This document shows, in pieces, positions 11,963-59,776 of a stretch of 64,000 nucleotides of DNA; position 1 is the stretch's first letter; every line of letters starts with the position of its first letter. A model generated the notes under the pieces. That model saw only the letters and a list, made by a program, of their open reading frames with translations. It ran no database searches and had not been told where the DNA came from. The stretch lies in contig NZ_JAUSTQ010000009.1 of assembly GCF_030812915.1 (NCBI RefSeq), forward strand, positions 1 to 64,000. The letters run 5' to 3'. This stretch comes from Alkalibacillus salilacus (GTDB lineage: Bacteria > Bacillota > Bacilli > Bacillales > Alkalibacillaceae). Made by a program: the position numbers and the translations under genes.

Positions 11963-12292
11963 GTTGTTGAATTGTGAGGAGCGAAGGTGGCGACTCCTGG
12001 TCGACTAAAAGCGGTCACGTCCTGTGACCAACGTCGACATTAGGCCGTCCGGGCCGTCACGGGAATAGCACGAGTCTCGAGACCCCCAGAGGCCCACAGG
12101 ATGTGGGTCACTTCGGCGTTTGTGATTGACGTCCGGCACTTAGCCGAAGTTCCTTTAGTTGCCGAGGAGGCTCGAGCCGTGCCCCTGCATAGAAAACACT
12201 GTGAAAAACGAACGTAGTGAGATTGAGCAGATGTTGCACTTGTGCCCTATGGGTAAAAGCGTCCACCGAGAGCGGATCACAATTTCAACAAC
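11963..12292 (+). repeat. Dispersed GC-rich structured repeat, copy 1 (largest, three accessory inserts)
   Basis: 330-bp intergenic element after ytnP. Terminal arms GTTGTTGAATTGTGA and TCACAATTTCAACAAC are near-perfect inverted repeats. Inside are the shared core blocks GGTGGCGACTCCTG, GTCTCGAGACC, GAGGAGGCTCGAGCCGTGC and AGCGTCCACC. Relative to copies 3 and 4 it has a ~60-bp insert (GTCGAC-flanked hairpin GGTCAC-GTCCT-GTGACC), an apical insert with hairpins GCCCAC-AGGAT-GTGGGT and ACTTCGGC / GCCGAAGT, and a third insert before AGCGTCC. A further outer pair, TGTTAAAGT (11931-11939) and ACTTTAACA (12295-12303), encloses it. No coding potential is apparent. This element fills the 472-base gap between ytnP and ytzB. 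Confidence 0.9.
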
Positions 12293-12320
12293 GGACTTTA
12301 ACAGAGACTAAAATTAAAAT

Positions 12321-12367
12321 AACCCTCAGTTCAAATCTGTTTTAAACAGTCATGAACTGGGGGTTAA
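12321..12367 (-). terminator. Terminator after ytzB
   Basis: 13-bp stem AACCCTCAGTTCA / TGAACTGGGGGTT with one G-T mismatch and a second hairpin (CTGTTT/AAACAG) in the loop. On the minus strand it is followed by an AT-rich tail with short T runs. Confidence 0.7.
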
Positions 12368-12379
12368 TCGTTTGTGTAC

Positions 12380-12697
12380 TTAAGATTCAATTAATTTATA
12401 CCTGTCTAGAATCTGGCCAGTAGTAGCATCCGCAACAAATTGATGTTGTTCTGTCTTTCCGTCAATTGTTCGAGACACGCCACCTTCATAAACTTGGAAA
12501 GATTGTCCGTTATGGTCATAAGCTTTCTTGTCCATTAAAATCCAAGATCCACTAATAGGCCCTGATTGTTTAAATTCTTCTTTTACTCGATTTAATGCCA
12601 CCTCAGGCACTAACCATTGATCTTTTACTTTTTTACCAACTATTGTTCCGACGGCAATGCCAACAGTTGCAGGCACAACTAGTTTATACCATTTCAT
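12380..12697 (-). CDS. ytzB: YtzB-like PepSY-domain membrane-anchored protein
   Basis: 105 residues. An N-terminal hydrophobic stretch (VVPATVGIAVGTIVG, ~8-22) is a likely membrane anchor. The rest resembles a PepSY domain (FVADATTGQILDRY near the C terminus), a fold found in peptidase propeptides and cell-surface regulators. It is divergent from the ytoP aminopeptidase gene, as in B. subtilis. Its role is unknown; modulation of a protease is inference. Confidence 0.78.
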   Translation of the reverse strand: MKWYKLVVPATVGIAVGTIVGKKVKDQWLVPEVALNRVKEEFKQSGPISGSWILMDKKAYDHNGQSFQVYEGGVSRTIDGKTEQHQFVADATTGQILDRYKLIES

Positions 12698-12833
12698 GTA
12701 AAATCACTCCATTAATAAGTCATTTTACCTTATTATAACGACTGTATAATGGAAAAGGAAATAAAATGTGATGGATTATCAAAAATTTTCTGTTAAAATA
12801 AAAGAGGATTCTATTATGCTTGGAGTGATAATC

Positions 12834-13901
12834 TTGAATCAAGAGACAAAAGAAATGTTTAAAACGTTAACAGAACTTCCAGGGGCACCGGGTCACGAAC
12901 ATGAAGTTCGTCAGTTTATGCGACAAGAATTACATAAATATTCTGATGAAGTTGTTCAAGACCGTTTAGGTGGTGTCTTTGGTGTACGTCATGGCGAAGG
13001 ACCTAAAGTTATGGTTGCAGGCCACATGGATGAGGTAGGGTTCATGGTGACCCAAGTGACTAAGAACGGTATGTTACGCTTCCAAACCTTAGGTGGCTGG
13101 TGGAGTCAAGTTATGCTTGCGCAACGTGTTCAAGTGATGACAGACCATGGACCTGTTACAGGTGTGATTGGTTCAACACCACCGCATAACTTAACACCAG
13201 AACAACGGAAGAAACCAATGGAAGTTAAAGATATGTTAATTGATATTGGTGCAGATGATGAAGAAGATGTGAAGCGAATTGGAGTTAAGCCAGGGCAACC
13301 GATTGTTCCTGTTTGCCCATTCACTGAAATGGCAAATGAAAAGAAAGTGATGGCAAAAGCTTGGGATAATCGTTATGGCTGTGGTTTATCGATTGAACTA
13401 TTAAAAGAATTACAAGGTGAGAGCTTGAACCATACGCTCTATTCAGGTGCAACCGTGCAAGAAGAAGTAGGACTTCGCGGTGCTCAAGTGGCTGCGAATA
13501 TGATTGATCCGGATTTGTTTTTTGCATTAGATGCATCACCGGCAAATGATATGGAAGGTGATGACAAAGAGTTTGGTCAATTAGGCAAAGGTGCATTATT
13601 ACGTATTTTCGACCGAACAATGATTACACATCGTGGTATGCGTGAATTCATTCTTGATACCGCAGAATCTAAGGATATTCCATATCAGTACTTCATTTCG
13701 CAGGGTGGAACTGATGCAGGTCGAGTACACACTTCAAACGATGGTGTGCCATCAGCAGTGGTAGGTATTTGTTCCCGTTATATTCATACAAGCTCATCTA
13801 TGATTCATATTGATGATTATGCTGCAGCCAAAGAATTATTAACAAACTTGGTTAAATCCATTGACCAATCAACTGTCGATTCGATCAAACAAAATAGCTA
13901 A
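12834..13901 (+). CDS. ytoP: M42-family glutamyl aminopeptidase YtoP
   Basis: 355 residues from TTG 12834, close to the ~357 typical of the family. Metal and catalytic residues visible in order: AGHMDEVG (His, Asp), AWDNRYGC (bridging Asp), QEEVGLRG (catalytic Glu pair), ALDASPAND (Asp) and a C-terminal [12 protein letters not shown] (His). M42 enzymes are cytoplasmic tetrahedral dinuclear zinc aminopeptidases. Start choice: TTG 12834 has GGAG 8 bases upstream and gives the usual N terminus; ATG 12816, 8 bases after AGAGG, would add six residues and cannot be excluded. Confidence 0.92.
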
Positions 13902-13911
13902 AATTTATATA

Positions 13912-13939
13912 TTGACAATCTTTATGCGCACGTTAAAAT
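13912..13939 (+). promoter_or_regulatory. Promoter-like sequence pointing into a hairpin and antisense to ytoQ
   Basis: A consensus -35 (TTGACA, 13912-13917), 16-base spacer and TAAAAT (13934-13939). Transcription would start at about 13946, inside the left arm of the terminator hairpin, and could run antisense into ytoQ. Whether it is used is unknown. Confidence 0.4.
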
Positions 13940-13940
13940 A

Positions 13941-13971
13941 AGAGAGATGAACTAAAATTGTTCATCTCTCT
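13941..13971. terminator. Convergent terminator between ytoP and ytoQ
   Basis: Inverted repeat AGAGAGATGAAC / GTTCATCTCTCT (12 bp) with a 7-base loop. The flanking T runs are short in both directions, so efficiency is uncertain. Confidence 0.7.
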
Positions 13972-13983
13972 ATTTATAAGAGG

Positions 13984-14424
13984 CTATTTAAATGTATAAA
14001 CGAGTACATCTAAAGCTTGATCAATGGTTTCAACCGTTACATTAGCTTTGTTAGATAATTCTTTTAAAGGATGTACTAATGATTCAGGTCGAATCAGAAT
14101 CAGAGGCTTGTTTAATCCAATGGCTATTCCAGCGTCCATAGCTGTATTCCATTGTTTATAAGATTCCCCAAAAAGAGCGATTACGGCATCTGCTTGTTGC
14201 ATCATTAATTGTGTTCTAAAGTTATTGATGCTTGATGCTGCATCGTCTCGGTCAATTTGGTTAGGTTGTTGACCTAATATTTGTTCACCAATGTCATCAG
14301 ATAAATCATGATTTTCTTGGGGACCTGAAAATTTTAAATCTAAATCATGTTGCTTGGCTTTCGATTTTAATTGATCACGCCAATCATCATGAATTTGACC
14401 AGCTAAATAGATTGATAAAGTCAT
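13984..14424 (-). CDS. ytoQ: YtoQ family protein
   Basis: 146 residues with the N-terminal SIYLAGQIHDDWRDQL and the ALFGESYKQWNTAMDAGIA block, which match the YtoQ family (about 148 residues). The fold resembles nucleoside 2-deoxyribosyltransferase-like Rossmannoid proteins, but no activity is established. Soluble. It is transcribed towards ytoP. ATG follows AAGGAGG. Confidence 0.85.
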   Translation of the reverse strand: MTLSIYLAGQIHDDWRDQLKSKAKQHDLDLKFSGPQENHDLSDDIGEQILGQQPNQIDRDDAASSINNFRTQLMMQQADAVIALFGESYKQWNTAMDAGIAIGLNKPLILIRPESLVHPLKELSNKANVTVETIDQALDVLVYTFK

Positions 14425-14526
14425 TTAATATCCTCCTTGTAGAGATTGATGTTATCATTAATAATGAATAGAGAAAATTCATTTGTCAAATAACTTAATA
14501 GAAAACTAGTTTCGGAGGGAAATGAA

Positions 14527-15024
14527 TTGAAGAGAATTGCAGGAATCGGGATTGTATTACTTGGTTTCGTCTTAGGGGCTTGTTCACCTTCAATGGATGA
14601 AGCATTTAATGAAGCCGAAAATAATGTTAAAGAGACGTTTTTATCGTCTGATACAAAAGAAACAAATGAGAGCTTCGATCAATTTGATATTTATAAACCA
14701 GAAGAATTAGAAGTACGTGAACAAAATAAAAGTAATGTTGTCTTTCAAGAAGATGATCAATCGTATGTATTGTTCATTAATGAATTTGAAGCACCGAATA
14801 GTAAATGGTTCTATAATCAAATTGAAAATAAAGGGCTCTATCTAAAAACATTTGAAACTGAGGATGCATTTGCATACTTACAAGCAAAAGAATACGATGA
14901 AGAACGTTATGAAATCCATGTAGGCATTGGCGGAATTAAGATGTCAACAGTTTCAAGTGTAAGTGATATTGAAGAAGATATTACGATGATGATCGAGATG
15001 ATTGAATCTGTAAATCAACAATAA
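14527..15024 (+). CDS. Small lipoprotein of unknown function
   Basis: 165 residues. The signal peptide MKRIAGIGIVLLGFVLGAC ends in a lipobox (LGAC, Cys19), so the mature protein should be lipid-anchored outside the membrane. The mature part is acidic, with no family I recognise. The TTG start is supported by GGAGGG 7 bases upstream. It lies directly upstream of the PfoR-like membrane protein gene (short gap, same strand), so a functional link is possible but only inferred. Confidence 0.8.
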   Translation: MKRIAGIGIVLLGFVLGACSPSMDEAFNEAENNVKETFLSSDTKETNESFDQFDIYKPEELEVREQNKSNVVFQEDDQSYVLFINEFEAPNSKWFYNQIENKGLYLKTFETEDAFAYLQAKEYDEERYEIHVGIGGIKMSTVSSVSDIEEDITMMIEMIESVNQQ

Positions 15025-15045
15025 TCCTACTCGGAGGTTATGGTC

Positions 15046-16068
15046 TTGAAGCAATTTTTGGAGCGTAAAGGTGTTCATCCATCTATCCATCAGTATGTTC
15101 TAACATCCTTAAGCTATATGGCTTTAGGTTTATTTGCGTCACTCATTATTGGTACGATTTTTCAAACACTAGGTAATGAAGTGCCTTTTTTACCTCAGGC
15201 TTTTGTAGATATTGGTGATTTTGCGATCCAACCTATTATATACGGTGGAGCGATTGGAATTGCTATTGCTCATGGTTTAAAAGCGCCACCACTCGTATTG
15301 TATAGTGCGTTATTTGCTGGAAGTTATGCTGCTGAAATTGGCGGTGGCCCTGCTGGAAGCTTTCTTGCTGCCCTAGTTGCTGTTGAAATCGGGAAACTAA
15401 TTAGTAAAGAGACGAAGTTAGACATAGTTCTAACCCCGTTGCTAACGATCTTAGTAGGTTTCGTCGTAGCATCCACAGTTGGTCCGCCAATTTCAGCTAT
15501 GCTCGAAGGCTTTGGTTCGATTATTAATTGGGCAACAGATCTAAGACCATTTCTCATGGGAATGATTGTAGCAGCTTTAATGGGATTGGCTTTAACAGCC
15601 CCTATATCAAGTGTCGCAATTGCTGTTATGTTAGATCTTCAAGGGTTAGCTGCTGGTGCAGCAACTGTTGGATGTGCAGCTCAAATGATTGGTTTTGCGG
15701 TAAGCAGTTACCGAGAAAATGGTTTTGGCGGGCTCATTTCGCAAGGTGTGGGAACTTCCATGCTTCAAATTGCTAATATCGTTCGAAAACCGATTTTACT
15801 TATTCCTCCAACTGTAGCAGGAATGGTGTTGGCCCCAGTAGCAACAGTTTGGCTAGAGTTGGAAAATAATGCGATTGGTGCAGGTATGGGAACTAGTGGA
15901 TTAGTCGGTCCGATTATGTTAGTTGAAACAATGGGATCATCGGCACAACTTTTATGGGTGATTATCTTGTTGTTGATTGTCTTACCAGGACTCATTAGTT
16001 TAATATTATCTGAATGGTTAAGAAAGAAAGGTCTTATTCAAGATGGAGATATGAGACTTGATGCATAA
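15046..16068 (+). CDS. PTS EIIC-like membrane protein (PTS_EIIC_2 / PfoR family)
   Basis: 340-residue polytopic protein with about 8-10 hydrophobic segments and glycine-rich stretches (EIGGGPAGSFLAALVAVEIG, GMGTSGLVGPIML) typical of the PfoR-like EIIC_2 family. No EIIA or EIIB domain is fused or nearby. Known members include Clostridium PfoR, linked to toxin regulation, but transport function is not proved. ATG 15040 is only 2 bases from GGAGG, while TTG 15046 is 8 bases away and is preferred. Confidence 0.8.
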   Translation: MKQFLERKGVHPSIHQYVLTSLSYMALGLFASLIIGTIFQTLGNEVPFLPQAFVDIGDFAIQPIIYGGAIGIAIAHGLKAPPLVLYSALFAGSYAAEIGGGPAGSFLAALVAVEIGKLISKETKLDIVLTPLLTILVGFVVASTVGPPISAMLEGFGSIINWATDLRPFLMGMIVAALMGLALTAPISSVAIAVMLDLQGLAAGAATVGCAAQMIGFAVSSYRENGFGGLISQGVGTSMLQIANIVRKPILLIPPTVAGMVLAPVATVWLELENNAIGAGMGTSGLVGPIMLVETMGSSAQLLWVIILLLIVLPGLISLILSEWLRKKGLIQDGDMRLDA

Positions 16069-16143
16069 TCCCCGTGACTTTGCTAACCAATAGTGACATG
16101 GTAAAATGTTGAGTGATGTGCTTCAATAATGGGGTGAAATATA

Positions 16144-16956
16144 ATGAAAATGACTAGTATTAAAATGATGAAAATGCTAGAAGAACGTTTTAATTTTGCA
16201 GAATGGAAAACAACATTTAATAAAGATGAAGATACATTTCGTATTGAATGGAAGCATAGTGAGCAAGGTGTCACTATTTCGTTACCTGGCGTTATTTCCA
16301 AATGGGAAAACCGCGGTGAAGAGGCTATTAACGAACTGGTCTCGCATATAAGTGAAGCTTTAACGATTATGAATGAAGATCAAACATTAGAAGGAAAGGA
16401 AAGCCAAATCTTTCCGGTCATTCGAGCAGGATCTTTTGCAACGGAATCTAATGAAGGAGTTCCACTAATTTATACGGATCATACGGCTGAGACTCGAATT
16501 TATTATGCAATTGATTTGGGTCAATCTTATCGATTGATTGATCAGAATATGATGACAAAAGAAAATTGGACAAAGGATCGTATTCACGAAGTGGCCATGT
16601 TTAATATTCGACGTTTATCAACGGACATGAAACAAGATGATGTGGCTGGAAATACATTTTATTTTCTTTCTACGAATGATGGTTATGATGCCAGCCGAAT
16701 ATTGAATGAAGCATTGATAGAAGAAATGCGAGCAACTACAGAAGGTGAGCTTGCAGTGGGTGTCCCTCATCAAGATGTGTTAATTTTTGCGGATATTCAT
16801 AATAAAATGGGCTATGATGTACTGGCACAAATGATGATGCAATTTTTCGCAGAAGGTCGAATTCCAATTACGTCACTACCGTTCTTATATGAGGGTGACC
16901 AGTTAGAACCGATCTTCATATTAGCTCAGAAAAAACCTGATAGTGATAAGGAGTAG
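16144..16956 (+). CDS. ytpQ: YtpQ, DUF1444 / UPF0354 family protein
   Basis: 270 residues matching the DUF1444 family in length and in position just before ytpR. Conserved-looking blocks include IFPVIRAGSF and LSTNDGYDASRILN. No signal peptide. Biochemical role unknown. ATG 16144 has a GGGGTGA site. The next gene, ytpR, starts 5 bases after its stop, so the two form a unit. Confidence 0.87.
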   Translation: MKMTSIKMMKMLEERFNFAEWKTTFNKDEDTFRIEWKHSEQGVTISLPGVISKWENRGEEAINELVSHISEALTIMNEDQTLEGKESQIFPVIRAGSFATESNEGVPLIYTDHTAETRIYYAIDLGQSYRLIDQNMMTKENWTKDRIHEVAMFNIRRLSTDMKQDDVAGNTFYFLSTNDGYDASRILNEALIEEMRATTEGELAVGVPHQDVLIFADIHNKMGYDVLAQMMMQFFAEGRIPITSLPFLYEGDQLEPIFILAQKKPDSDKE

Positions 16957-16961
16957 AAGCG

Positions 16962-17579
16962 ATGCAAGTTGTATATAACCGACAAGGTATAGGTGATGTT
17001 TTATTATTAACCTTACACCAAACCGACGCTAAAACAATTGTTGAAGAATATGGGGATGTGACTCGAATAGCATTAGCTGATTCAGGTGAAGCAGTTGCTT
17101 ATAATATCTTTAATGCTTCAGACTACATTGACATCAATCATTATGAGTTGCTAAATATTGATCAAGACTTTGTTGAGCAAGTGAATCACATTTTTAACAA
17201 CAATGGATTAAATGAAACACTTAATATTGACGTATCACCGAAATTTGTTGTCGGAAAAATTGATTCCATAGATCAACATGACGATTCTGATAAATTAAGT
17301 GTTTGCCAAGTTGATGTCGGTGAAGAGACTTTGCAGATTGTTTGTGGAGCACCGAATGTAACTGAAGGACAGAAGGTTGTTGTAGCAAAAGTAGGCGCAT
17401 TCATGCCTAGTGGCTTAGAGATTAAAGATTCAGAGCTACGTGGTGTTAAATCAACAGGTATGATTTGTGCTGCAAGAGAATTAAATTTACCGAATGCACC
17501 ACAGGAAAAAGGTATCTTAGTTTTGAATGATCAAGAAAAAGTTGGCAATCCGTTCACATTAAGTATGTATCAAGCTTAG
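16962..17579 (+). CDS. ytpR: YtpR, DUF4479 plus tRNA-binding (EMAP/OB) domain protein
   Basis: 205 residues. The N-terminal half (~1-85) is a DUF4479-type region; the C-terminal half (~90-200) is a tRNA-binding OB fold like that of PheT, with DKLSVCQVDVG, IVCGAPNV, and LRGVKSTGMICAARELNL. Likely binds tRNA or another nucleic acid; no catalytic site is evident. RBS AAGGAG overlaps the end of ytpQ. Confidence 0.9.
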   Translation: MQVVYNRQGIGDVLLLTLHQTDAKTIVEEYGDVTRIALADSGEAVAYNIFNASDYIDINHYELLNIDQDFVEQVNHIFNNNGLNETLNIDVSPKFVVGKIDSIDQHDDSDKLSVCQVDVGEETLQIVCGAPNVTEGQKVVVAKVGAFMPSGLEIKDSELRGVKSTGMICAARELNLPNAPQEKGILVLNDQEKVGNPFTLSMYQA

Positions 17580-17623
17580 TTAATGTTTGAAGTGTTATTG
17601 CGAATGAGGGGAGGGGTCTACTC

Positions 17624-18733
17624 GTGAAAGAATTTGAATTAAAACAACAAGGGAAAATTAAACGTTTAACGAATCAAACGTTTAAATTTGATGAACGTAT
17701 TAAGGATGGATGGTTTTCGGCTGTATACTTTTTAAAAACCAAGCAAATAGTAGAAGAACATTTGAGCGATAATATAGTAACAATGCAGTTTTTCCAAAAG
17801 AAGGATGCTGTCTTATGTGGCACAGATGAAGCCATCGCATTATTACATACTTTCGCGGATCATCCTGAAGACTTAGAAATTTATGCATTAGCAGATGGAG
17901 ATAAAGTGGCCCCCTATGAATCTGTGTTAACCGTGACTGGGCGGTACCAAGATTTCGGATATTTAGAAGGGATTATCGATGGTATTCTTGGGCGGAGAAC
18001 ATCTGTTGCAACCAATGTTTATGAGGTAGTGAATGCTGCAGGGTCGTCTGGTACGCAAAAACCTGTGATTTTCATGGGTGATCGTGATGATCATTATACC
18101 CAACAAGCAGGTGATGGTTATGCCGCTTACATTGGCGGTTCGACAGCTCAAGCAACACATGCCATGAATGAATGGTGGGGCAAAGAAGGAATGGGTACGA
18201 TGCCTCACGCCTTAATTCAAATGTATAAAGGCGACATAGTTAAAGCGACCAAAGCCTATCAAGCTACGTTTCCTAATGATGAATTACTTGCATTAGTAGA
18301 TTACAATAATGATATTATTACGGATTCATTGAAAGTAGCACGTGAATTTGGCGAAGAGCTTAAAGGGGTTCGACTTGATACATCGAAAAATATGGTTGAT
18401 AAATATTTCTTCCGCAACCAACATTTGATGGGCTCTTTTGACCCACGCGGGGTTAATCCACAATTAATCTTTGCGCTACGCAAGGCCCTAGATGATGAAG
18501 GATTTGACCATGTGAAAATCATGGCAAGTGGTGGCTTCACTGAAGATAGAATTCGCTATTTTGAGTCATTACATGTCCCAGTTGATATGTATGGTGTAGG
18601 AAGTAATTTATTAAAAATGAAGATTGGGTTTACGGGGGATAACGTGTTATTAAACAATGAACATGAAGCGAAGCAAGGTCGTAAATTCATGCCCAACCCA
18701 CGTTTAGAAAAAGTTGAATATAACGGTGATTGA
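17624..18733 (+). CDS. Nicotinate phosphoribosyltransferase
   Basis: 369 residues of the short type II PRTase family of nicotinate phosphoribosyltransferases, which make NaMN in the NAD salvage pathway. Features: FFQKKDAVLCGTDEA, GILGRRTSVATN, GDRDDHY, GVRLDTS (PRPP-site region) and IMASGGFTEDRI, where the Gly-Gly turn binds phosphate. GTG start has a strong GGGGAGGGG site. In B. subtilis, as remembered, the SftA translocase gene lies between ytpR and murC; here this gene is in that place. Confidence 0.86.
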   Translation: MKEFELKQQGKIKRLTNQTFKFDERIKDGWFSAVYFLKTKQIVEEHLSDNIVTMQFFQKKDAVLCGTDEAIALLHTFADHPEDLEIYALADGDKVAPYESVLTVTGRYQDFGYLEGIIDGILGRRTSVATNVYEVVNAAGSSGTQKPVIFMGDRDDHYTQQAGDGYAAYIGGSTAQATHAMNEWWGKEGMGTMPHALIQMYKGDIVKATKAYQATFPNDELLALVDYNNDIITDSLKVAREFGEELKGVRLDTSKNMVDKYFFRNQHLMGSFDPRGVNPQLIFALRKALDDEGFDHVKIMASGGFTEDRIRYFESLHVPVDMYGVGSNLLKMKIGFTGDNVLLNNEHEAKQGRKFMPNPRLEKVEYNGD

Positions 18734-18761
18734 TTTTAGTTTAAATCAGTCACCGTTTTTT
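18722..18761 (+). terminator. Terminator overlapping the end of the nicotinate phosphoribosyltransferase gene
   Basis: Stem AACGGTGATTGATTT / AAATCAGTCACCGTT with one mismatch and a 5-base loop, then six T residues. The 5' arm includes the stop codon. Confidence 0.88.
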
Positions 18762-18972
18762 GTCGTTTAAATGACTATCATTAGTCAAATAGATGCCTAT
18801 TTTGATACAGTGTGTTCAGTATGGTTAAACTTTAACTGAGCGAAAAGATGCAATTTCAAGCTAAATAATTGATTATGGTGGACGATTGTGATAATTCTGC
18901 TATAATGAAAAAAGCAATTTAGAAATCAAAGCATATACTAATAACAGAATGAACAATACGGGGGTTCGATTC

Positions 18973-20268: not shown

Positions 20269-20269
20269 A

Positions 20270-20304
20270 AAAGCGCTCGGTGATTAATCACCGAGCGTTA
20301 TTTT
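20270..20304. terminator. Bidirectional terminator between murC and the M29 aminopeptidase gene
   Basis: Perfect palindrome CGCTCGGTGATT / AATCACCGAGCG at 20274-20297, flanked by A-rich and T-rich runs, so it can act on both strands. Confidence 0.9.
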
Positions 20305-25621: not shown

Positions 25622-25827
25622 GTTGTTGAATTATGAGAAGCGAAGGTGGCGACTCCTGGTCGACTAAAAGCGGTCACGTCCTGTGACCAACGTCGACATT
25701 AGGCCGTCCGGGCCGTCACGGGAATAGCACGTGTCTCGAGACCCCGCAGGAAGCGCATTTCTTCCGAGGAGGCTCGAGCCGTGCCTGCGGAAAGCGTCCA
25801 CCGAGAGCGGATCATAATATCAACAAC
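25622..25827 (+). repeat. Dispersed GC-rich structured repeat, copy 2 (one accessory insert)
   Basis: 206-bp element in the 480-base divergent gap between the FtsA-like gene and aroA. Arms are GTTGTTGAATTATGA and TCATAATATCAACAAC: the G to A change in the left arm is matched by C to T in the right arm compared with copy 1. It has the same 60-bp GTCGAC-flanked hairpin insert as copy 1, with identical sequence, and the apical hairpin GGAAG-CGCATTT-CTTCC. The rest of the gap (25828-26013) is AT-rich leader with no other clear structure. Confidence 0.9.
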
Positions 25828-26013
25828 GGTCTTAATCAAGATAATCAAAAAAGTATTGTCTAAACTAAGACGCCCTTTAATGACAAGTAGGCCGTGGTTC
25901 GATATAATGTGACTAGAAATCGACAAAGATTATAAATATAAAACAATGAGATTAATTAAGGATAATGTACCATAAATATCACTTAATATAAACTGAAGCT
26001 GGAGGCAAGAACA

Positions 26014-35691: not shown

Positions 35692-35819
35692 TGACGAACC
35701 TCCTAAAATATCGACTATATTATAGCATATCTTGTCTAATCGTCATATCCTCTATTAGAATGATTATGTTGCGTTTTTTATAAGACTATGGTAAAAATAT
35801 ATTGATAAATTAAATAACA

Positions 35820-36040
35820 AGCAATGAATAGTTGAAGTAAGGACATAATGATAGTGTTTCAGAGAGCTGATGGGTGGTGTGAATCAGTACACAGTATGGA
35901 CTGAATTACGGCTAGGAGCTTTTCTCGATTAAGAGACGGTTAATCCCGTTAACGAATGAAGTGGTGTCAAGTTTGTTCGACACAAATAGGGTGGTAACGC
36001 GAGCCTCTCGTCCCTAAGCGGATGAGAGGCTTTTTTATAT
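35820..36040 (+). promoter_or_regulatory. T-box leader of tyrS
   Basis: The 366-base gap before tyrS holds a T-box riboswitch. The conserved T-box AGGGTGGTAACGCG is at 35988-36001; it is followed by the terminator stem GCCTCTC / GAGAGGC and a T run (36003-36038). Stem I begins near AGAGAGCTG (35861). A TAC at 35907-35909 is the best candidate for the tyrosine specifier codon, agreeing with the downstream gene. Uncharged tRNA-Tyr would stabilise the antiterminator and raise tyrS expression. A weak promoter candidate (TTGCGT, 17 bases, TAAAAA) lies upstream. Confidence 0.94.
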
Positions 36041-36057: not shown

Positions 36058-37329
36058 ATGAATATTATTGAGGATTTACATGCTAGAGGGCTCATTAATC
36101 AGATGACTGATGAAGAGGGATTAGAGAAGCATTTAATTGAAAATAGAGTGTCATTATATTGCGGGTTTGACCCTACAGCTGATAGCCTTCATATTGGTCA
36201 TTTATTACCTATATTGATGCTGAAACGATTCCAAGAAGCTGGTCATCGCCCAATTGCATTAGTAGGTGGTGGCACTGGTTTAATTGGTGATCCGAGTGGA
36301 CGTAGCGAAGAACGTCAATTAAATGAGGAATCAATTGTTCAAGATTGGGTGGCTAATATTAAGAGTCAATTATCTCGTTTAATTGATTTTTCCGATGAGA
36401 AAACAGGCGCCAAAGTTGTGAATAACTATGATTGGCTGTCAGAGATGTCAGTGATCGATTTATTACGAGATGTTGGTAAGCATTTCAGTGTTAATTATAT
36501 GTTAGCGAAGGATTCAGTCGAAACACGAATCGAAAACGGTATCTCTTTTACAGAATTCACTTATATGTTGCTTCAGTCACTTGATTTCCAACGACTAAAT
36601 CAACAAGAAGGTGTGACATTACAAATTGGTGGTAGTGATCAGTGGGGTAATATTACAGCTGGATTAGAATTTATTCGTCGTAAAAGTGATGAAGGCGAAG
36701 ACGTTGAAGCTTACGGCCTGACAGTACCATTGATTACTAAGGCTGATGGTTCAAAATTTGGTAAAACAGCTGGAGGAGCGATCTGGCTTGATGAGAAGAA
36801 AACAAGTCCTTATGAGTTTTACCAATTTTGGATTAATACGGACGATCGAGATGTCGTGAAGTTCTTGAAATCTTTCACTTTCTTATCATTAGAGGAAATT
36901 GGTGAATTAGAGACAGAACTATCAGAACGTCCAGAGCAAAGAAAAGCTCAGCGTCGTTTAGCTGAAGAAATGACGAAGATGGTTCATAGTGAAGCGGCAC
37001 TAAATCAAGCACAACGTATTACAGCTGCGCTCTTTGGTGGAGATATCAATGATTTAACCAAAGAAGAGGTGGAGGTCGGTTTTAAAGATGTTCCGACCTA
37101 TGAATTAGTTGATTCTGAAAAAGGATTAATTGATTTACTTGTTGAAGCAAGTATCTCTTCATCTAAACGTCAAGCACGCGAAGATATTCAAAATGGTGCG
37201 ATTTATATCAATGATCAACGCCAACAAGATATGGGATATGTCGTGAATCAGGAAGATCGAATTGATAATGCATTCACTGTCATTAGACGTGGTAAAAAGA
37301 AATACTTTTTAGTACGTCATAGCTCATAA
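36058..37329 (+). CDS. tyrS: Tyrosyl-tRNA synthetase
   Basis: 423 residues, class I synthetase. HIGH motif in DSLHIGHLLP (~42-51), KMSKS equivalent in ADGSKFGKTAGG (~228-239), tyrosine-site YCGFDPTAD, and a C-terminal S4-like RNA-binding domain (~355-420). ATG has a perfect AAAGGAGG site. Controlled by the T-box immediately upstream. Confidence 0.97.
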   Translation: MNIIEDLHARGLINQMTDEEGLEKHLIENRVSLYCGFDPTADSLHIGHLLPILMLKRFQEAGHRPIALVGGGTGLIGDPSGRSEERQLNEESIVQDWVANIKSQLSRLIDFSDEKTGAKVVNNYDWLSEMSVIDLLRDVGKHFSVNYMLAKDSVETRIENGISFTEFTYMLLQSLDFQRLNQQEGVTLQIGGSDQWGNITAGLEFIRRKSDEGEDVEAYGLTVPLITKADGSKFGKTAGGAIWLDEKKTSPYEFYQFWINTDDRDVVKFLKSFTFLSLEEIGELETELSERPEQRKAQRRLAEEMTKMVHSEAALNQAQRITAALFGGDINDLTKEEVEVGFKDVPTYELVDSEKGLIDLLVEASISSSKRQAREDIQNGAIYINDQRQQDMGYVVNQEDRIDNAFTVIRRGKKKYFLVRHSS

Positions 37330-49185: not shown

Positions 49186-49186
49186 T

Positions 49187-50756: not shown

Positions 50757-50818
50757 TATAGAATGAATGAAAGCAAAAATAGTGGATCTGTTAAATTTCA
50801 ATTTATTATAAGCTGATG

Positions 50819-50964
50819 GTTGTTGAATTGTGAGAAGCGAAGGTGGCGACTCCTGCGTGAATAGCACGAGTCTCGAGACCCCGCAGGAAGCGCTTTTCTT
50901 CCGAGGAGGCTCGAGCCGTGCCCGCGGAAAGCGTCCACCGAGAGCGGATCACAATTTCAACAAC
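50819..50964 (+). repeat. Dispersed GC-rich structured repeat, copy 3 (minimal form)
   Basis: 146-bp element between the ssp gene and ytcJ; it occupies much of a 404-base gap that also holds the two hairpins after ssp. Arms GTTGTTGAATTGTGA / TCACAATTTCAACAAC and core as in the other copies, without the 60-bp insert. Apical hairpin GGAAG-CGCTTTT-CTTCC. Outer pair TGTTAAATT (50789-50797) and ACTTTAACA (50967-50975) matches at 8 of 9 positions. No convincing ORF. Confidence 0.9.
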
Positions 50965-51064
50965 GGACTTTAACATACCAAAAATAATTTGCGCTATGAC
51001 AGGTGTTTTCGGTAAAGTATAAGTAACAATATTTTAATGCGTTAATATGAAGGAGAAAAGCGAA

Positions 51065-52654: not shown

Positions 52655-52666
52655 ATAAAAGCGACT

Positions 52667-52709
52667 AAATGTTTCATAACCTAATTAATTAGGTTATGAA
52701 ACATTTTTT
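52667..52709 (+). terminator. Terminator after ytcJ
   Basis: Long perfect palindrome AAATGTTTCATAACCTAATT / AATTAGGTTATGAAACATTT (20 bp, no loop bases needed), followed by T4-5. Confidence 0.94.
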
Positions 52710-52760
52710 GTATAAATATTCCTTTTTGAGACACCTTATAAGTGTCAGGAGCTGATTAGG

Positions 52761-53420: not shown

Positions 53421-53829
53421 TATGATGGAAACAGCCATGGAAAGTTTAAAAGACATGATTGATGTGAATACGATTGTCGGTGATCCGATTGAAACACCTG
53501 ATAAGTCAACTGTTATTCTTACCGTATCAAGAGTTGGTTTTGGGTTTGCTTCAGGAGGTAGTGAATTTCAAACATCATCGCAACAGCAAGACTCTCAATC
53601 CCAGCAAGAACTGCCTTATGGTGGTGGTGCTGGTGGAGGTGTTTCTATTACACCGATTGCATTTTTGATTGTAAGAGCACATGATGTCCAAATGGTTCAT
53701 TTAGATGAAAATACACATATTGTTGAGAAATTGATTGATTTAGCACCACAAGCTGTGGAAAAAATCCAATCTTTATTTAATGAATCGAACCAGAATCAAC
53801 ATTCACAATCAACCTCAACCCCTGAATAA
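53398..53829 (+). CDS. gerW: GerW (YtfJ), spore germination protein
   Basis: 143 residues of the GerW/YtfJ family: ETAMESLKDMIDVNTIVGDPI, VSRVGFGFASGGSEF, GGGAGGGVSITPIAFLIV. In B. subtilis it is made in the forespore and needed for germination with L-alanine. The Gln/Ser-rich stretch at ~60-73 (QQQDSQSQQE) and tail are linkers. Coupled with ytfI. Confidence 0.93.
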   Translation: MSEHPIHNMMETAMESLKDMIDVNTIVGDPIETPDKSTVILTVSRVGFGFASGGSEFQTSSQQQDSQSQQELPYGGGAGGGVSITPIAFLIVRAHDVQMVHLDENTHIVEKLIDLAPQAVEKIQSLFNESNQNQHSQSTSTPE

Positions 53830-53899
53830 TTCTTTAACTGTCAAAGTCCTTTCATCTTTGCTAAAATAAGACTGTATTATGATTCACGGAGGGACTTTG

Positions 53900-54883
53900 A
53901 TGCAAGAACAAATTGACACGCTGTTCACATGGTTAGACGAAACAACAACCATCATTGAACAGGAAGAAAATACACCTTATATTGAAGCGTTAATTGCTTC
54001 AAGTAATTTATTATTTGAACAACAGGTGCCTGAAGATTTAGAACCTAATTATCGTCAAAAATTAGTTGATCAAGTGAATAATGTTCAATTTGATCAATTT
54101 GATAAAGAAGCGCGACGTAAGGCTATGCAATTAGCTATTTTAAAAGGAATGAAAGGTGCTACTCAACAGCATCATTACATCACTCCGGATACGATTGGTG
54201 TATTTATTGGTTATTTAATTAATAAATTTATGGATGATGAGACTTCATATCGATTATTTGATCCAGCGGCAGGCTCAAGTAATTTGTTATTAACTATTTT
54301 AAACCAACAAGATCATCTGGATGTTGAAGCGTTTGGAAGTGAAGTTGATCCAACACTTATTCGCTTAGCTTTTAATAATACGAATTTACAAGAACGTGAA
54401 ATCGAGTTTTTCCATCAAGACAGTCTAAAACCAATTTTATTAGAGCCTGTCGATGTGATTGCTTCAGATTTACCAGTCGGTTATTACCCTGATGACGATA
54501 CGGCCAGTTCTTACGAATTAAAAGCAGAAGAAGGGGAACATTCCTTTGCTCACCATTTATTTATCGAACAAAGTTTAAAATATGTGAAAGAAGCAGGTTA
54601 TCTATTTTTTGTTGTGCCTAGCTTCTTATTTGCTAGTGAACAGAAAGATGCTTTGCAGTCGTTTCTAAAAGAAAACGCACATATAGTGGGCGTTTTAGAA
54701 TTACCGGAATCCATGTTTAAAGATGAGAAGTTCAAGCGAAGCATTTTAGTTTTACAGAAAAAAGGAGAAGCAACACGGGATCCAAATAAAGTGATGTTAG
54801 CGCAATTACCATCCTTTAAAGATGTAGAAGGAACCAATAATGTCATTCAACAGATTGATGAATGGTTCCAAAACGATCGATAA
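53900..54883 (+). CDS. ytxK: YtxK-like class I SAM-dependent methyltransferase
   Basis: 327 residues. SAM motif I FDPAAGSSNLLLTIL (~117-131) like type I restriction N6-adenine methylases. The NPP(Y/F) catalytic motif expected after it reads SDLPVGYYPDDD, so DNA adenine methylation is doubtful unless the variant works. A helical N-terminal region (1-100) precedes. ATG 53900 follows CGGAGGGA. In B. subtilis ytxK is next to ackA; here the next gene is EcsC-like. Role unknown. Confidence 0.86.
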   Translation: MQEQIDTLFTWLDETTTIIEQEENTPYIEALIASSNLLFEQQVPEDLEPNYRQKLVDQVNNVQFDQFDKEARRKAMQLAILKGMKGATQQHHYITPDTIGVFIGYLINKFMDDETSYRLFDPAAGSSNLLLTILNQQDHLDVEAFGSEVDPTLIRLAFNNTNLQEREIEFFHQDSLKPILLEPVDVIASDLPVGYYPDDDTASSYELKAEEGEHSFAHHLFIEQSLKYVKEAGYLFFVVPSFLFASEQKDALQSFLKENAHIVGVLELPESMFKDEKFKRSILVLQKKGEATRDPNKVMLAQLPSFKDVEGTNNVIQQIDEWFQNDR

Positions 54884-54897
54884 AAGGAGCTGTGTTC

Positions 54898-55713
54898 ATG
54901 GGAGAGGAACGCGTTTTAGTCGATTTGTCACGTTGGGAAGAGGATTTGGCTTCTTATGTTTCAAATGATTTTGAGAAAATGTATGAATTGTGGGTGCAAG
55001 ATCAGTTTCAAAAACTACCTAAGCATGTGCAACAACGTTTTTTTAACGGTGTGGATCAATGGTTAATTTATACTTATACCTTCCTTCAAGGAACGCAAAT
55101 GCAACAGGATGCTTATGACCGATTATTGCAAATTGGCCGTACGTATGATGAAACAATCAATACGGTTGAAGATTTGAGCCGATTATCAATTGAGAAACAA
55201 ACTTATCTCGCTAACCAGCACGTCGCTAAAAACCGTTTATACTCCTTCGTCCAAGGTGGTATGGCTGGTTCTGGTGGTTGGTTTTTATTAGGTGTTGATA
55301 TTCCATTAATGGTGGGGTTAAATTTACGAACCATTCAATTAATCGGTACGAGTTTTGGGTATAATATGCATAACCCGATCGAAATGCTATTGGCGCTAAA
55401 AGTGTTTCATGCCGGGGCTTTACCGAAGCGATTGCGCTATGAAGCTTGGCAGGAATTAAAGGGAAATGTAAATGAATATGACTCGTTTATGGGTGAACAC
55501 GAGGAATTAACGAATCCGACATGGGCAGAACAACCGTTAAAGTCCATATTTAAAACGTTAGTGATTGTGTTATCTCGTAGGAAAATGATACAGGGCTTAC
55601 CAATAGTAAGCGTAGGAATTGGAGCAACTATAAATTATAAAACAGCTAAGGATGTCAGTGATTTTGCAACACGATTTTATCAATATCGTTCCATTCAATC
55701 TTCCAATAAATAA
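54898..55713 (+). CDS. EcsC family protein
   Basis: 271 residues with a central hydrophobic stretch (GGMAGSGGWFLLGVDIPLMVGLNLRTIQLIG, ~118-148) and the EcsC signature, plus a second near residue 235 (GLPIVSVGIGATINY). In B. subtilis ecsC sits beside the EcsAB ABC exporter; here none is adjacent. Function unclear. ATG has AAGGAG. Starts 14 bases after ytxK, so same transcript. Confidence 0.86.
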   Translation: MGEERVLVDLSRWEEDLASYVSNDFEKMYELWVQDQFQKLPKHVQQRFFNGVDQWLIYTYTFLQGTQMQQDAYDRLLQIGRTYDETINTVEDLSRLSIEKQTYLANQHVAKNRLYSFVQGGMAGSGGWFLLGVDIPLMVGLNLRTIQLIGTSFGYNMHNPIEMLLALKVFHAGALPKRLRYEAWQELKGNVNEYDSFMGEHEELTNPTWAEQPLKSIFKTLVIVLSRRKMIQGLPIVSVGIGATINYKTAKDVSDFATRFYQYRSIQSSNK

Positions 55714-55745
55714 AGGTGACCATTAGATGGTCACCTTTATTTATT
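55705..55745. terminator. Bidirectional terminator overlapping the ends of the EcsC-like and uspA genes
   Basis: Perfect 18-bp arms beginning AATAAATAAAGGTGACCA with a 5-base loop. Both convergent stop codons lie within it; tails are T-rich both ways. Confidence 0.94.
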
Positions 55746-56187
55746 CATCTTCAGGTCTTACAACCAAAACGTCTACTTTCGAATAACGGGTAATGTGTTC
55801 TGATACACTGCCGATAAAGAAACGTTCGACTGTGTTCATTCCTGTTGCTCCACAGATAATTAGATCAGCATTGTATTTTGGTGCTACTTCTTTTGCAATT
55901 TTAACTTTAGGTGAACCGTGTTCGAGGTCAGTCACGACGTTTTCAACACCTTCATCTTCTGCACGATTTTGATAAGTTCTTAGCAATTCCCAAGCATCAT
56001 TTTGTACCCGCTCTGATACACTACGGTCGTATGCTTCAATTGTGGAATAAACGCGTGTATCGACTACATGTGAAATGATGAGTGTAGCATTATTTCGTTT
56101 AGCAATACTAATTGCTTTTTGAAAGGCAAAATCGGATGCTTTAGATCCATCTACAGCAATCACGACATCATGATATTCGAAAGCCAT
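55741..56187 (-). CDS. Universal stress protein, UspA family
   Basis: 148 residues, single Usp domain. ATP-binding motif G-x2-G-x9-G-S is intact: GATGMNTVERFFIGSVS (~113-129). N-terminal DVVIAVDGSKASDFAF is typical. Probably an ATP-binding dimer of the stress response. ATG follows AAGGAGG. Divergent from the ytkK homologue. Confidence 0.92.
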   Translation of the reverse strand: MAFEYHDVVIAVDGSKASDFAFQKAISIAKRNNATLIISHVVDTRVYSTIEAYDRSVSERVQNDAWELLRTYQNRAEDEGVENVVTDLEHGSPKVKIAKEVAPKYNADLIICGATGMNTVERFFIGSVSEHITRYSKVDVLVVRPEDE

Positions 56188-56339
56188 ATGACCCCTCCTT
56201 ATTTCTACTTATATTATACCATAAATATCAGAATATTCATACTCGTATAAGACGTTGATTTATCGTTTACTTTATTCATTTTATAGGGGAAACATGGTAA
56301 AATTGGATTAGAGATGATGTAATGATAGGAGTTCTAGAT

Positions 56340-57101
56340 ATGAGACATGTCATTGTAACAGCTGGAACAAAAGGATTAGGACGAAAAATGACAGAGTATT
56401 TTCTCTCGCTAGGTTATAGTGTAACAGCAACTTATCGAACGGATGCTGAAAGAGCAAACGAACTGATCCAAACTTTTGAAGAAGAACAAGATCGCTTACA
56501 AGTTGTTTATCTTGATACGATGAACGTTTCGTCAATTCGTTTAGCCGTTAATCAAGCCTATGAGCGGTTTGGTCGCATTGATTGCTTAGTTAGTAATGCT
56601 GGGCCGTATATTTTTGAGCGTAAGAAATTGTTTGATTATACCGAAGATGAATGGCATGAGATGGTCCGTGGTAATTTAGATGCGTCTTTTTATTTACTTA
56701 AAAATGTACTGCCGATTATGCGAGAACAGAAATTTGGCAGAGTGATCTTTCTTGGATTTCAAGGTGTCGATTATAGTTCAGGGTGGATTTATCGCTCAGC
56801 GTTCGCTTCAGCCAAGGTAGGATTAGCTTCATTAATGAAGACTGTTGCATTGGAAGAAGCAGAAAACCAAATCACAGCGAATATGATTGCACCTGGTAAA
56901 ATAGTTAATGAAATGAAAGAAGCAGATATCGTGGCTAGTCGTGATATAGTAGACACAGAAACACCAATAGGACGACCTGGAACTGGTGAGGATATTGCGA
57001 GAACTGTCGCTTATTTATGCGACGATCAATCAGATATGATTACTGGTACTGTGATCGAAGTAACTGGTGGATTAGACGTTATTCATAAGCATTTATCTTG
57101 A
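56340..57101 (+). CDS. ytkK: YtkK-like short-chain dehydrogenase/reductase-fold protein with altered active site
   Basis: 253 residues. Rossmann motif TAGTKGLG (~7-14), NAGPY (~90) and the C-terminal ITGTVIEVTGGLDV are typical of SDRs. However, the YxxxK motif reads FASAK (Phe for the catalytic Tyr) and the Ser expected 13 residues before it is Gly, in GFQGVDYSSGWIYRSAFASAK (part). So it may bind NAD(P) without oxidoreductase activity. ATG 56340 is 8 bases after AGGAG; the upstream ATG 56322 lacks a site. Confidence 0.83.
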   Translation: MRHVIVTAGTKGLGRKMTEYFLSLGYSVTATYRTDAERANELIQTFEEEQDRLQVVYLDTMNVSSIRLAVNQAYERFGRIDCLVSNAGPYIFERKKLFDYTEDEWHEMVRGNLDASFYLLKNVLPIMREQKFGRVIFLGFQGVDYSSGWIYRSAFASAKVGLASLMKTVALEEAENQITANMIAPGKIVNEMKEADIVASRDIVDTETPIGRPGTGEDIARTVAYLCDDQSDMITGTVIEVTGGLDVIHKHLS

Positions 57102-57178
57102 TGATACTAAAAATATGTAATCCATGTTATAGTTAAATCGGTTACATAATTATAAGAACCAATATAGGAGGTTTAGTT

Positions 57179-58291
57179 ATGAAAATTGGCGTACCCAAGG
57201 AGATTAAAAACAATGAAAATCGAGTTGCGCTTACACCTGCAGGGGTTATGACGCTTCAAGAAGCGGGTCATGATTTATTTGTAGAAACACAAGCAGGAGA
57301 AGGTTCTGGTTTCACAGATGATCAATATCGTGAAGCGGGTGCTACGGTTGTAGATTCTGCTAATGAAACTTGGAAGCAAGAAATGGTGATGAAGGTTAAG
57401 GAGCCGCTACCAGAAGAATATGATTATTTTTATGAAGGACTTATATTATTTACTTATTTACATTTAGCGGCAGAACCTGAATTAACTCAAGCTTTAATTG
57501 AACATAAAGTGACAGGCATTGCTTATGAAACAGTTGAATCTGATCAAGGCACACTACCATTATTAACGCCTATGAGTGAAGTGGCTGGTCGTATGGCTTC
57601 GCAAATCGGTGCTCAATTCTTAGAGAAAACACGTGGAGGAAAAGGTGTCTTATTAAGCGGTATTCCAGGTGTGGAACGTAGTAAAGTTACGGTTATTGGT
57701 GGTGGTGTCGTAGGTACCAATGCTGCCAAAATAGCAGTAGGCTTAGGTGCTGATGTCACAATTGTTGATTTAAGCCCGAACCGTTTACGTGAATTAGATG
57801 ACTTATTTGGTAATCAAATTAATACAGTTATGTCTAATCCGTTAAATATCGAACAACAAGTTAAACAGTCTGATTTATTAATCGGTGCTGTACTGATTCC
57901 TGGTGCTAAAGCGCCTAAATTAGTCACAGAAGACATGGTCAAACAAATGACAGATGGCTCTGTTATCGTTGATGTGGCAATTGACCAAGGTGGTATTGTT
58001 GAAACGGTTGATCACATTACGACACATGATAACCCAACTTATGATCGCCATGGTGTCCGACATTATGCGGTTGCGAATATGCCAGGAGCTGTTCCTCGGA
58101 CATCAACTATTGGATTAACCAATGTCACAGTGCCATATGCTTTACAGCTTGCTAATAAAGGTTATCAAGAAGCGGTACAAGATAACCCTCAATTAGCTAA
58201 AGGTGTTAATACCTTGAAAGGTCATGTGACTTATAAAGCTGTTGCCGATGCACATGGAATGGACTTCTATGATCTAACAAATTTAATTTAA
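57179..58291 (+). CDS. ald: Alanine dehydrogenase
   Basis: 370 residues. [20 protein letters not shown] at the N terminus, [27 protein letters not shown] motif [15 protein letters not shown] (~173-187) and [16 protein letters not shown]. It converts L-Ala to pyruvate and ammonia with NAD; needed for sporulation in B. subtilis. ATG has AGGAGG. Confidence 0.97.
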
Positions 58292-58325
58292 AGCTTATTT
58301 CCTTAAATAATTAATAGTCACGAAT

Positions 58326-58372
58326 AAACCCGGATGACTCCTGATCATAATAGGAGCTCATCCGGGTTTTTA
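58326..58372. terminator. Bidirectional terminator between ald and the M24 peptidase gene
   Basis: AAACCCGGATGA / TCATCCGGGTTT with an inner CTCCT / AGGAG stem, followed by T4. Confidence 0.9.
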
Positions 58373-58396
58373 GCTGAATAATTATTTTACAATGTT

Positions 58397-59494
58397 TTAT
58401 GAAATGATTTGCAAGTCTTTAGGATATTGAGTTAAAACTAGTGGACCGTCCTCCGTCATATAAATATCATCCTCAATTCTGACACCACCAACGTTAGGCT
58501 GGTAAATCCCTGGTTCGATCGTAAATGTCATACCAGCTTGTAATGGATTTTGATTGTTCGATGCCATCGAAGGAAATTCGTGAACGTCAATTCCGATGCC
58601 GTGACCAATTCTGTGGGTAAAATAGTCGCCATAGCCTGCGTCATCAATAGTGGAACGTGCTGCTCGGTCAATTTCACCTAATGGTGTCCCTAGTTGACAT
58701 GTTTCAATCGCTCGTTTTTCCGCTTCTAAAACAGTTTGATACACAGCTTGTTGCTCATTCGTTATATTGCCCACAGCTACTGTCCGGGTAATGTCAGAGC
58801 AATAGCCATTATAAACAACACCTAGGTCCATTAAGACAAAATCACCGTTTTCAATCGGCTTAGTGCTCGGTGTCCCATGTGGTGACGCTGTTTTTTCACC
58901 TGATAGGACGAGCGTGGAAAATGACATATCACGTATGCCTTTTTGTTTTAAAGCATATTCGACTTCTGCAATGATTTCTAATTCTGTTTTGCCTGGTTGA
59001 ATATGGTGGACCGCCGTTTCAATAGCAAAATCAGCATAACGAGCAGCTTCTTGAAGCGCTTTTAGTTCTGATTCATCTTTGATAACACGAATTTGATTAA
59101 GTAATTGTTGCCCGTGGTAAACGTCACTTGCTTGTGTGAGGTTAAGGATGTTCTGATAACGCGAAACATTTAGATGATCTTCTTCAATAGCTAAATGCTT
59201 CGGTAATTCACCTGTTGATGTGAGCCATATTTTAATTTTGTCCCAAGGGTCTTCGTGATCGAAGTATGTAATAATATCGTTTTGCCAAGATGTGCGACGA
59301 ATATCTTCCATTTCTAATGCTGGTGCTACGATTGCTTGACGCCCATTTGTATCAACATAGACAGCAATTAAACGCTCGTGAGCTTCAGCGTATAAGCCAC
59401 TGTAATAAAATACATTATCTTTAGATGTCATAAACATACTATCTAAATTTCGTTCTCTTAAAGCTTCGGTTAATTGATCTAATCGTTGATTCAA
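58397..59494 (-). CDS. M24-family Xaa-Pro dipeptidase-like peptidase
   Basis: 365 residues. An N-terminal creatinase-like domain (~1-130) precedes the pita-bread M24 domain with metal ligands DLGVVYNGYCSDITRTV (Asp, Asp), HRIGHGIGIDVHE (His), FTIEPGIY (Glu) and VRIEDD (Glu). Resembles B. subtilis YkvY/PapA. Start: GTG 59503 lies in the GAGGTGATT site, TTG 59494 is correctly spaced and chosen. Divergent from copy 4 and ytkL. Confidence 0.92.
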   Translation of the reverse strand: MNQRLDQLTEALRERNLDSMFMTSKDNVFYYSGLYAEAHERLIAVYVDTNGRQAIVAPALEMEDIRRTSWQNDIITYFDHEDPWDKIKIWLTSTGELPKHLAIEEDHLNVSRYQNILNLTQASDVYHGQQLLNQIRVIKDESELKALQEAARYADFAIETAVHHIQPGKTELEIIAEVEYALKQKGIRDMSFSTLVLSGEKTASPHGTPSTKPIENGDFVLMDLGVVYNGYCSDITRTVAVGNITNEQQAVYQTVLEAEKRAIETCQLGTPLGEIDRAARSTIDDAGYGDYFTHRIGHGIGIDVHEFPSMASNNQNPLQAGMTFTIEPGIYQPNVGGVRIEDDIYMTEDGPLVLTQYPKDLQIIS

Positions 59495-59630
59495 GTTAAT
59501 CACCTCTAAAAATTATAGTCTCTATGTGTTATCTTAAAGGATAACGGGTAATAAATGAATGGTGAAGTAATAATTTTATTTGGCTCTGTTAAAACTTAGT
59601 ATTATTTTATAATACATTTATAAGTTTATA

Positions 59631-59776
59631 GTTGTTGAATTGTGAGAAGCGAAGGTGGCGACTCCTGTGGGAACAGCACGCGTCTCGAGACCCCGCAGGT
59701 CGTGCCTTTTGGCCGAGGAGGCTCGAGCCGTGCCCACGGAAAGCGTCCACCGAAAGCGGATCACAATATCAACAAC
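59631..59776 (+). repeat. Dispersed GC-rich structured repeat, copy 4 (minimal form)
   Basis: 146-bp element in the 329-base divergent gap between the M24 peptidase and ytkL. Arms GTTGTTGAATTGTGA / TCACAATATCAACAAC. Inner stem CTGTGGG / CCCACGG, where copy 3 has CTGCG / CCGCGG, i.e. a T-A pair replacing C-G. Apex GCC-TTTT-GGC. The remaining 59495-59630 and 59777-59823 stretches are AT-rich with no other clear feature. Confidence 0.9.

Follow-up and report, generated by a model that had tools for sequence, protein, structure and literature searches.

Bacterial miniature inverted-repeat transposable elements (MITEs) are a known kind of repeat, and bcr1, NEMIS, ERIC and RUP have been named among them (PMC3733652). 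Insertion sequences of the IS1595 family are reported to generate target-site duplications (TSDs) of 8 bp, and the related Merlin elements to have a conserved terminal GG (PMC8101967), while IS1272, of the IS1182 family, is reported to replace target inverted repeats or stem-loops, thus targeting palindromes (PMC5678879). Bacillaceae-1 (RF01690) has been described instead as a small RNA (sRNA) family. It appears in a table of Weinberg 2010 (PMC2864571) and is listed among the abundant sRNAs without function (PMC9029176), with eight copies given for B. subtilis (PMC8208703) and ten for a Brevibacillus (PMC5764928); its discoverers, according to one report, were not confident of its strand, and CsrA binding was suggested (PMC4333381). 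Here we describe a GC-rich intergenic repeat of Alkalibacillus salilacus, four copies of which (e1 to e4) lie in the first 64,000 nucleotides of contig NZ_JAUSTQ010000009.1, the whole stretch that was analysed and hereafter called the window. Its 2.73-Mb draft genome (G000) was compared within a set of 60 genomes of the same order, G000 included. The elements are, very probably, MITEs of the IS1595 family, the payload of which is an old GC-rich hairpin core with exchangeable nested modules.

Transposon ends, target-site duplications and turnover

A preliminary description of the window had presented these repeats as a family of four copies bounded by GTTGTTGAA...TTCAACAAC arms. Such arms exist, but they are the inner arms only and the mobile unit is longer. 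The true ends, situated further out, are GGCTCTGTTAAAGT on the left and ACTTTAACAGAGCC on the right, and in many copies they are accompanied by AT-rich TSDs of 8 bp. Instead of four copies, the genome contains about 55: the 20-mer AGCGAAGGTGGCGACTCCTG, with at most three mismatches, gave 56 matches in G000 and its reversed control none, and a covariance model (R1) built from 24 module-free copies (alignment A2) gave 51. Alkalibacillus almallahensis has one copy (L109) with both ends perfect and flanked by TTAAAATA.

The TSDs were evaluated in 64 elements, mainly from G000 and from its sister species G005, about 92% identical to it, together with L109 and one element each from G008 and G020, allowing up to four substitutions in each end. 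Both ends were recognisable in 37 of the 64 elements, and 20 of these 37 carried a duplication (11 identical at 8/8 positions and nine at 7/8). In a control in which the left flank of one copy was set against the right flank of another, 0.6% reached 8/8 and 7.7% reached 7/8, that is, 8.3% in total. Within the window the TSD is exact in e1 and e3, and it is not clear in e2 and e4.

The same ends were found in a transposon, reached by a plasmid search with the left arm, that splits a glutamine synthetase gene on a Pontibacillus plasmid (L114). This transposon has the terminal inverted repeat (TIR) GGCTCTGTTAAAGTT, the right end ATATCAACAACAAACTTTAACAGAGCC, the TSD TTTCGAAT and a PF12762 (IS1595) transposase; in G001, of the same genus, a transposase 79% identical to it stands beside one recognised end of this type. 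In addition, 16 IS1595 loci were scanned for the end. Five of them have paired ends, the 8-bp flanks being identical by eye in four (L212, L215, L218 and L225) and unlike in L220, and in the remaining loci one such end or none was seen; the reversed control motif gave 11 chance matches in 103 kb, both strands counted. A TIR starting with 5'-GG is common to the elements and an IS1595 insertion sequence. ISL3, which was first suspected as the parent family, was rejected, since PF01610 was not found in G000 and the ends match IS1595 instead. On Bacillota plasmids, IS1595-type ends also flank small non-transposase genes, encoding a GNAT protein at 2501-3287 of L111 and a short hypothetical open reading frame (ORF) at 2501-2970 of L110, which suggests that these are passenger-carrying relatives.

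Contig C9 of G000 (108 kb), 20 stretches (399 kb) and 50 short loci were compared with 340 kb of G005, this being part of either genome. All 20 comparable sites differed. Twelve of them were occupied in one genome only, nine G000 elements (including e2, e3 and e4) being missing in G005 and three G005 elements being missing in G000, and at seven of these 12 sites (e3, L012, L041, L043 and L158:12731 in addition to C2:47269 and C2:75146 of G005) there was a TSD of 8-9 bp, exact or with one mismatch. At the e2 site G005 lacks the element and has a 10-bp unrelated residue, and at the L030 site it retains the outer arms only. Four elements were orthologous by their arms and flanks, and their modules, named A to D and presented below, differed in all four cases: none vs A+B at L015, none vs A+C at L016, A vs A+B at L042, and B vs A with a nested insert, B and C at L047. 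TIRs, TSDs of 8-9 bp, pairs of occupied and empty sites and a matching transposase family thus bear out the earlier suggestion of mobile palindromic units. A further stretch of 60 bp in G005 (C2:56961-57020, L091), absent from G000 and outside the site count, resembles an element with the whole core deleted and the arms left.

Elements of the window, core and Bacillaceae-1 modules

The four elements of the window, with the blocks quoted for them, were found where the preliminary description had placed them, and most of what it said of them held. They are GC-rich islands (GC 0.55-0.59, compared with 0.37 in the window and 0.30-0.37 in the 200-bp flanks) and they are intergenic, as no ORF of at least 80 aa overlaps any of them; of 51 elements considered across the genome, five were crossed by an ORF of at least 240 nt and 46 were not. 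The predicted end-to-end folding was better than that of every dinucleotide shuffle (z of -5.6 and -5.5 for the short copies and of -4.3 and -4.5 for the long ones). Their location on the same strand is true for these four, all on the + strand, but does not extend to the genome, with 28 forward and 28 reverse matches. Complete units measure 197 bp (e3), 211 bp (e4) and 383 bp (e1), and the length variation among the four elements is due to discrete modules: A, B and D in e1, A in e2 and none in e3 and e4 (Table 1).

Table 1. Coordinates of the elements, modules and target-site duplications in the window
Feature	Position	Strand	Evidence or description
Element e1, full unit	11926..12308	+	Alignment; IS1595-type ends GGTTATGTTAAAGTT...GGACTTTAACAGAGAC; modules A, B, D
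Left TSD copy of e1	11918..11925	.	TAAAATTA
Right TSD copy of e1	12309..12316	.	TAAAATTA
Module A in e1	12000..12059	+	60-nt insertion; plus 11 nt of core = forward Bacillaceae-1; RF01690 match 11989-12056 +
Module B in e1	12087..12161	-	Reverse-strand Bacillaceae-1; RF01690 match 12093-12159 -
Module D in e1	12185..12257	+	
Element e2, core and inner arms	25622..25831	+	Module A; outer ends decayed
Module A in e2	25659..25718	+	RF01690 match 25648-25715 +
Element e3, full unit	50782..50978	+	Module-free; clean empty site in G005
Left TSD copy of e3	50774..50781	.	CAAAAATA
Right TSD copy of e3	50979..50986	.	CAAAAATA
Element e4, full unit	59582..59792	+	Module-free; absent from G005; no clear TSD

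Measured over the span of the search anchors, a module-free element is 119 nt long, and the modules lengthen it by 60 nt (A), 57 nt (B), about 82 nt (C) or 67 nt (D). Module A may hold an extra 56-nt insert and, in L024, apparently also a whole second Bacillaceae-1, as seen by eye. The 52 parsed copies, of 53 in the set, showed 15 module states, 25 copies being module-free. All four combinations occur for each of the six pairs of A, B, C and D, a distribution that single gains without exchange or loss cannot explain; B with D (p 0.008) and C with D (p 0.013) are associated.

Modules A and B match RF01690 in opposite orientations, with scores above the gathering threshold. G000 contains 33 RF01690 matches above this score and, when the lists were compared by eye, 33/33 lay in or beside elements or cores, two of them in IS1182-type units. 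The link with Bacillaceae-1 that had been proposed for checking is therefore real, but it concerns a nested module present in both orientations and not the element itself: in G000, the "sRNA gene" Bacillaceae-1 is a hairpin module of mobile repeats. Across the comparison set, RF01690 was found in 38 of the 60 genomes, G000 included, with 0 to 68 copies per genome, the highest number being near the limit of 69 candidates scored. The 14 loci of other genomes that were viewed (L060-L073) are varied GC-rich hairpin-like repeats or arrays by eye, and the R1 search of 19 RF01690 loci (L060-L078) scored two as core (L061 and L063); L065 and L070 hold, by eye, the core with inserts. One of these loci, L072 (G034 C41), is an array of RTCCT-loop hairpins of Bacillaceae-1 type, in which two forms alternate by eye. 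In loci of G052, such as L062, a different GC-rich repeat carries many equal-scoring Bacillaceae-1 copies (at least 16 with 77.7-78.2 bits or more), which suggests a recent amplification.

Cores of this type had been described as occurring in many Bacillaceae genomes, and this was borne out by R1, which matched 51 of the 60 genomes including G000, among at most 51 best candidates per genome. The core of e4 had no match in phages and one match among 72,556 plasmid records; an exact 30-base pattern searched over the genome contigs gave one named locus and was too strict for mapping the distribution. The core is present in at least three different outer settings, an IS1595-type, an IS1182-type and a third one. 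The best copies of the core in G001-G003 are located between GTTGGTATCAGG arms. A unit with GAGGCTGRGAC-type ends, which are decayed in G000, surrounds it in G005 and in two locations of G000, and a unit with GGGGCTGGGACAAAA in G009. An element of a Carnobacterium plasmid annotated as IS1182 has GAGGCTGGGACAAAACC at both ends, and the IS1182 label of the second unit type is taken from this one annotated record.

The statement that the elements are structured was supported by the covariance of 29 module-free cores, with a covariation of 0.437 against a shuffled mean of 0.135 and a value of at most 0.077 when slid. Double changes were found in 20 of the 29 pairs of the structure, which was predicted from the same alignment, the shuffle statistics ignoring relatedness. 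About 55 copies, strong covariation and the evidence of mobility exclude that the family consists of the four window copies only, or that it shows neither covariation nor movement.

Two other functions considered for the elements were dropped: that of terminators, as a scan around e3 and e4 found no intrinsic terminator (a hairpin and then a T run), and that of a short reading frame which follows GAGGAGG in part of the copies, as its start is not kept in alignment A4 when viewed by eye. Elsewhere in the window, a T-box leader (RF00230, 130.9 bits) lies at 35815-36018 on the + strand, upstream of the ORF 36058-37329. The window, and with it the contig, begins within a 5S rRNA gene (RF00001, 1-94 +, 5' end cut), and the rRNA operon probably breaks the assembly there.

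Proposed mechanism and alternative readings

We propose that an IS1595 transposase encoded elsewhere would recognise the GGCTCTGTTAAAGT ends and mobilise the elements in trans, and that the copies would be inserted into AT-rich intergenic DNA with a TSD of 8-9 bp, a step to which the ends, the TSDs and the empty sites point. The payload would be an old GC-rich hairpin core, known also from other settings including the IS1182-type shell, in which the hairpin modules (A to D, and the inserts nested in A) occupy fixed positions. The observed pattern of combinations suggests that cores and modules are swapped between dispersed copies, for which homologous recombination or gene conversion would be the simplest route. 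RNA hairpins of some other bacterial MITEs are substrates of RNase III. By analogy, read-through from a neighbouring promoter might yield a sense transcript that folds into one long hairpin and would probably be cut by RNase III as well. The sense orientation predominates over the antisense one between co-directional genes (27 vs 8, p 0.0019; 51 elements, ORF-based), and no replication-strand bias was found in the 15 elements between convergent or divergent genes (eight leading, seven lagging).

Several observations weigh against the IS1595 reading or against parts of the mechanism. No intact IS1595 transposase was found in the G000 draft, which is 96.6% complete, other than a fragment below the cut-off at C6:29265-29477; there was no IS1595 transposase match either in G005 or in G006, G008 and G020, which have the same ends, and PF12762 matched in just 14 of the 60 genomes. 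Present activity is thus conjectural. However, the assignment stands on the ends and the TSDs, and a MITE can be one without its cognate transposase being encoded in the genome that carries it. In 24 copies, identity is 60% over the outermost 46 nt of the left arm vs 92% in the core, and such divergent outer arms are odd for recent copies of one master unless the cores have been homogenised. Five of the 12 sites occupied in one genome only (e2, e4, L013, L017 and C2:37689) have no clear TSD. Furthermore, at the L014 and L031 sites the elements of the two genomes point in opposite directions and their arms are unlike. Recombination between terminal repeats has been reported to invert other insertion sequences (PMC3004938) and could explain the opposite orientations, but the unlike arms favour separate insertions. 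Finally, in 30 elements taken from 29 other loci the preponderance of the sense orientation did not reach significance (10 ++ vs 6 --, p 0.45), the excess of G.T in the outer helices, counted by pair type and not by copy, was 7 vs 2 (p 0.18), and G.U pairs are rare in Bacillaceae-1 (2 G.T, 4 A.C, 24 other and 339 Watson-Crick, in 41 distinct 67-mers from 61 copies taken among the best matches).

This rarity of G.U pairs, together with the nearly equal folding strength of the two strands of e3 and e4, would be expected if the covariation were an artefact of palindrome correction at DNA level, by template switching between arms, and not the result of selection on a folded strand. We consider this rather unlikely, since pairing is kept in 93.9% of the cells across the 29 cores, which come from many genera, and the sequence between the helices is also conserved. 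In addition, G.T exceeds A.C in core pairs (15 vs 4 cells in 24 copies; 14 vs 3 over 66 copies, p 0.013), although not significantly by pair type, as stated above. The strong covariation of the core is in turn compatible with the view that core and Bacillaceae-1 act as functional small RNAs, such as sponges for CsrA, and were amplified because the host uses them. A match between the CsrA-binding motif and the reverse complement of Bacillaceae-1 has been reported (PMC4333381). CsrA itself is encoded in 58 of the 60 genomes, G000 among them, and G042, one of the two genomes without it, has no RF01690. However, the other one, G054, has two RF01690 copies, and the number of copies ranges from 0 to 68 in spite of the near-universal CsrA. 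Moreover, the module occurs in both orientations, sometimes within one element, which would leave AGGAY loops on a given strand in some copies only, and at orthologous sites elements are absent or modules differ. A functional role of this type is accordingly very improbable. The co-distribution of CsrA and RF01690 was discarded as a test, being uninformative with CsrA in 58/60 genomes.

Another possibility concerns not the shell but its contents, namely that core and modules move by themselves through a structure-dependent hairpin reaction, similar to the stem-loop-replacing transposition proposed for IS1272, and not by homologous recombination. The same core in IS1595-type, IS1182-type and third settings agrees with this, as do the L025 site, occupied by an IS1595-type unit in G000 and by an IS1182-type unit with the same core in G005, the location of module A at an identical point in both kinds of unit of G000, and the position of nested inserts within hairpin loops (by eye). 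Given the report that IS1272 takes the place of inverted repeats at its targets (PMC5678879), an IS1272-like stem-loop replacement would provide a route for the replacement of shells or hairpins. However, the cores of G000, about 92% identical over some 147 bp, are similar enough to recombine by the ordinary homologous route, an enzyme dedicated to such a reaction was not identified, and just 2/19 RF01690 loci of other genomes scored as core, so that we hold such a reaction to be doubtful. More speculatively, core and modules could be mobile structured hairpins below the level of the transposon, entering or replacing hairpin loops in a reaction that depends on structure and hopping between unrelated shells across the order, Bacillaceae-1 being one of them and not an sRNA gene; we put this forward as a tentative idea of low probability. 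The IS1595-family MITE with an exchangeable payload is the reading that we retain.

Relation to known systems

In the literature searched, whose coverage leaves most subscription journals outside, we found no account that presents this repeat as a MITE of the IS1595 family or Bacillaceae-1 as a module of transposons. The present reading gives a widespread Bacillales repeat a probable route of mobilisation and a candidate for its partner transposase, and an orphan Rfam "sRNA" family of 2010 is recast, at least in G000, as part of mobile palindromes, which matters wherever Bacillaceae-1 is counted as an sRNA. The orthologous pairs from two sister species also offer a natural system for studying how hairpins come to nest in hairpins and how dispersed repeats swap their inner parts yet retain their outer arms.

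Compared with IS1595-family insertion sequences and MITEs, the elements share the TIR beginning with GG, the AT-rich 8-bp TSD, closely matching ends and, in relatives, a PF12762 transposase, but they have no internal transposase and carry a GC-rich structured payload with nested modules. With IS1182/IS1272-type elements they are connected by the second unit type, which has the same core and ends in GAGGCTGRGACAAAA, found at both ends of the annotated IS1182 element, whereas e1-e4 do not have IS1182-type ends. Bacillaceae-1 RNA is matched by modules A and B above the gathering score, and its family has matches in 38/60 genomes, but in G000 it is a module of mobile palindromes in both orientations and not a free-standing gene. 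As in bcr1, NEMIS, ERIC and RUP, there are many short, foldable intergenic copies with TIRs. We know of no modular nesting, nor of a core common to different shells, in these four families.

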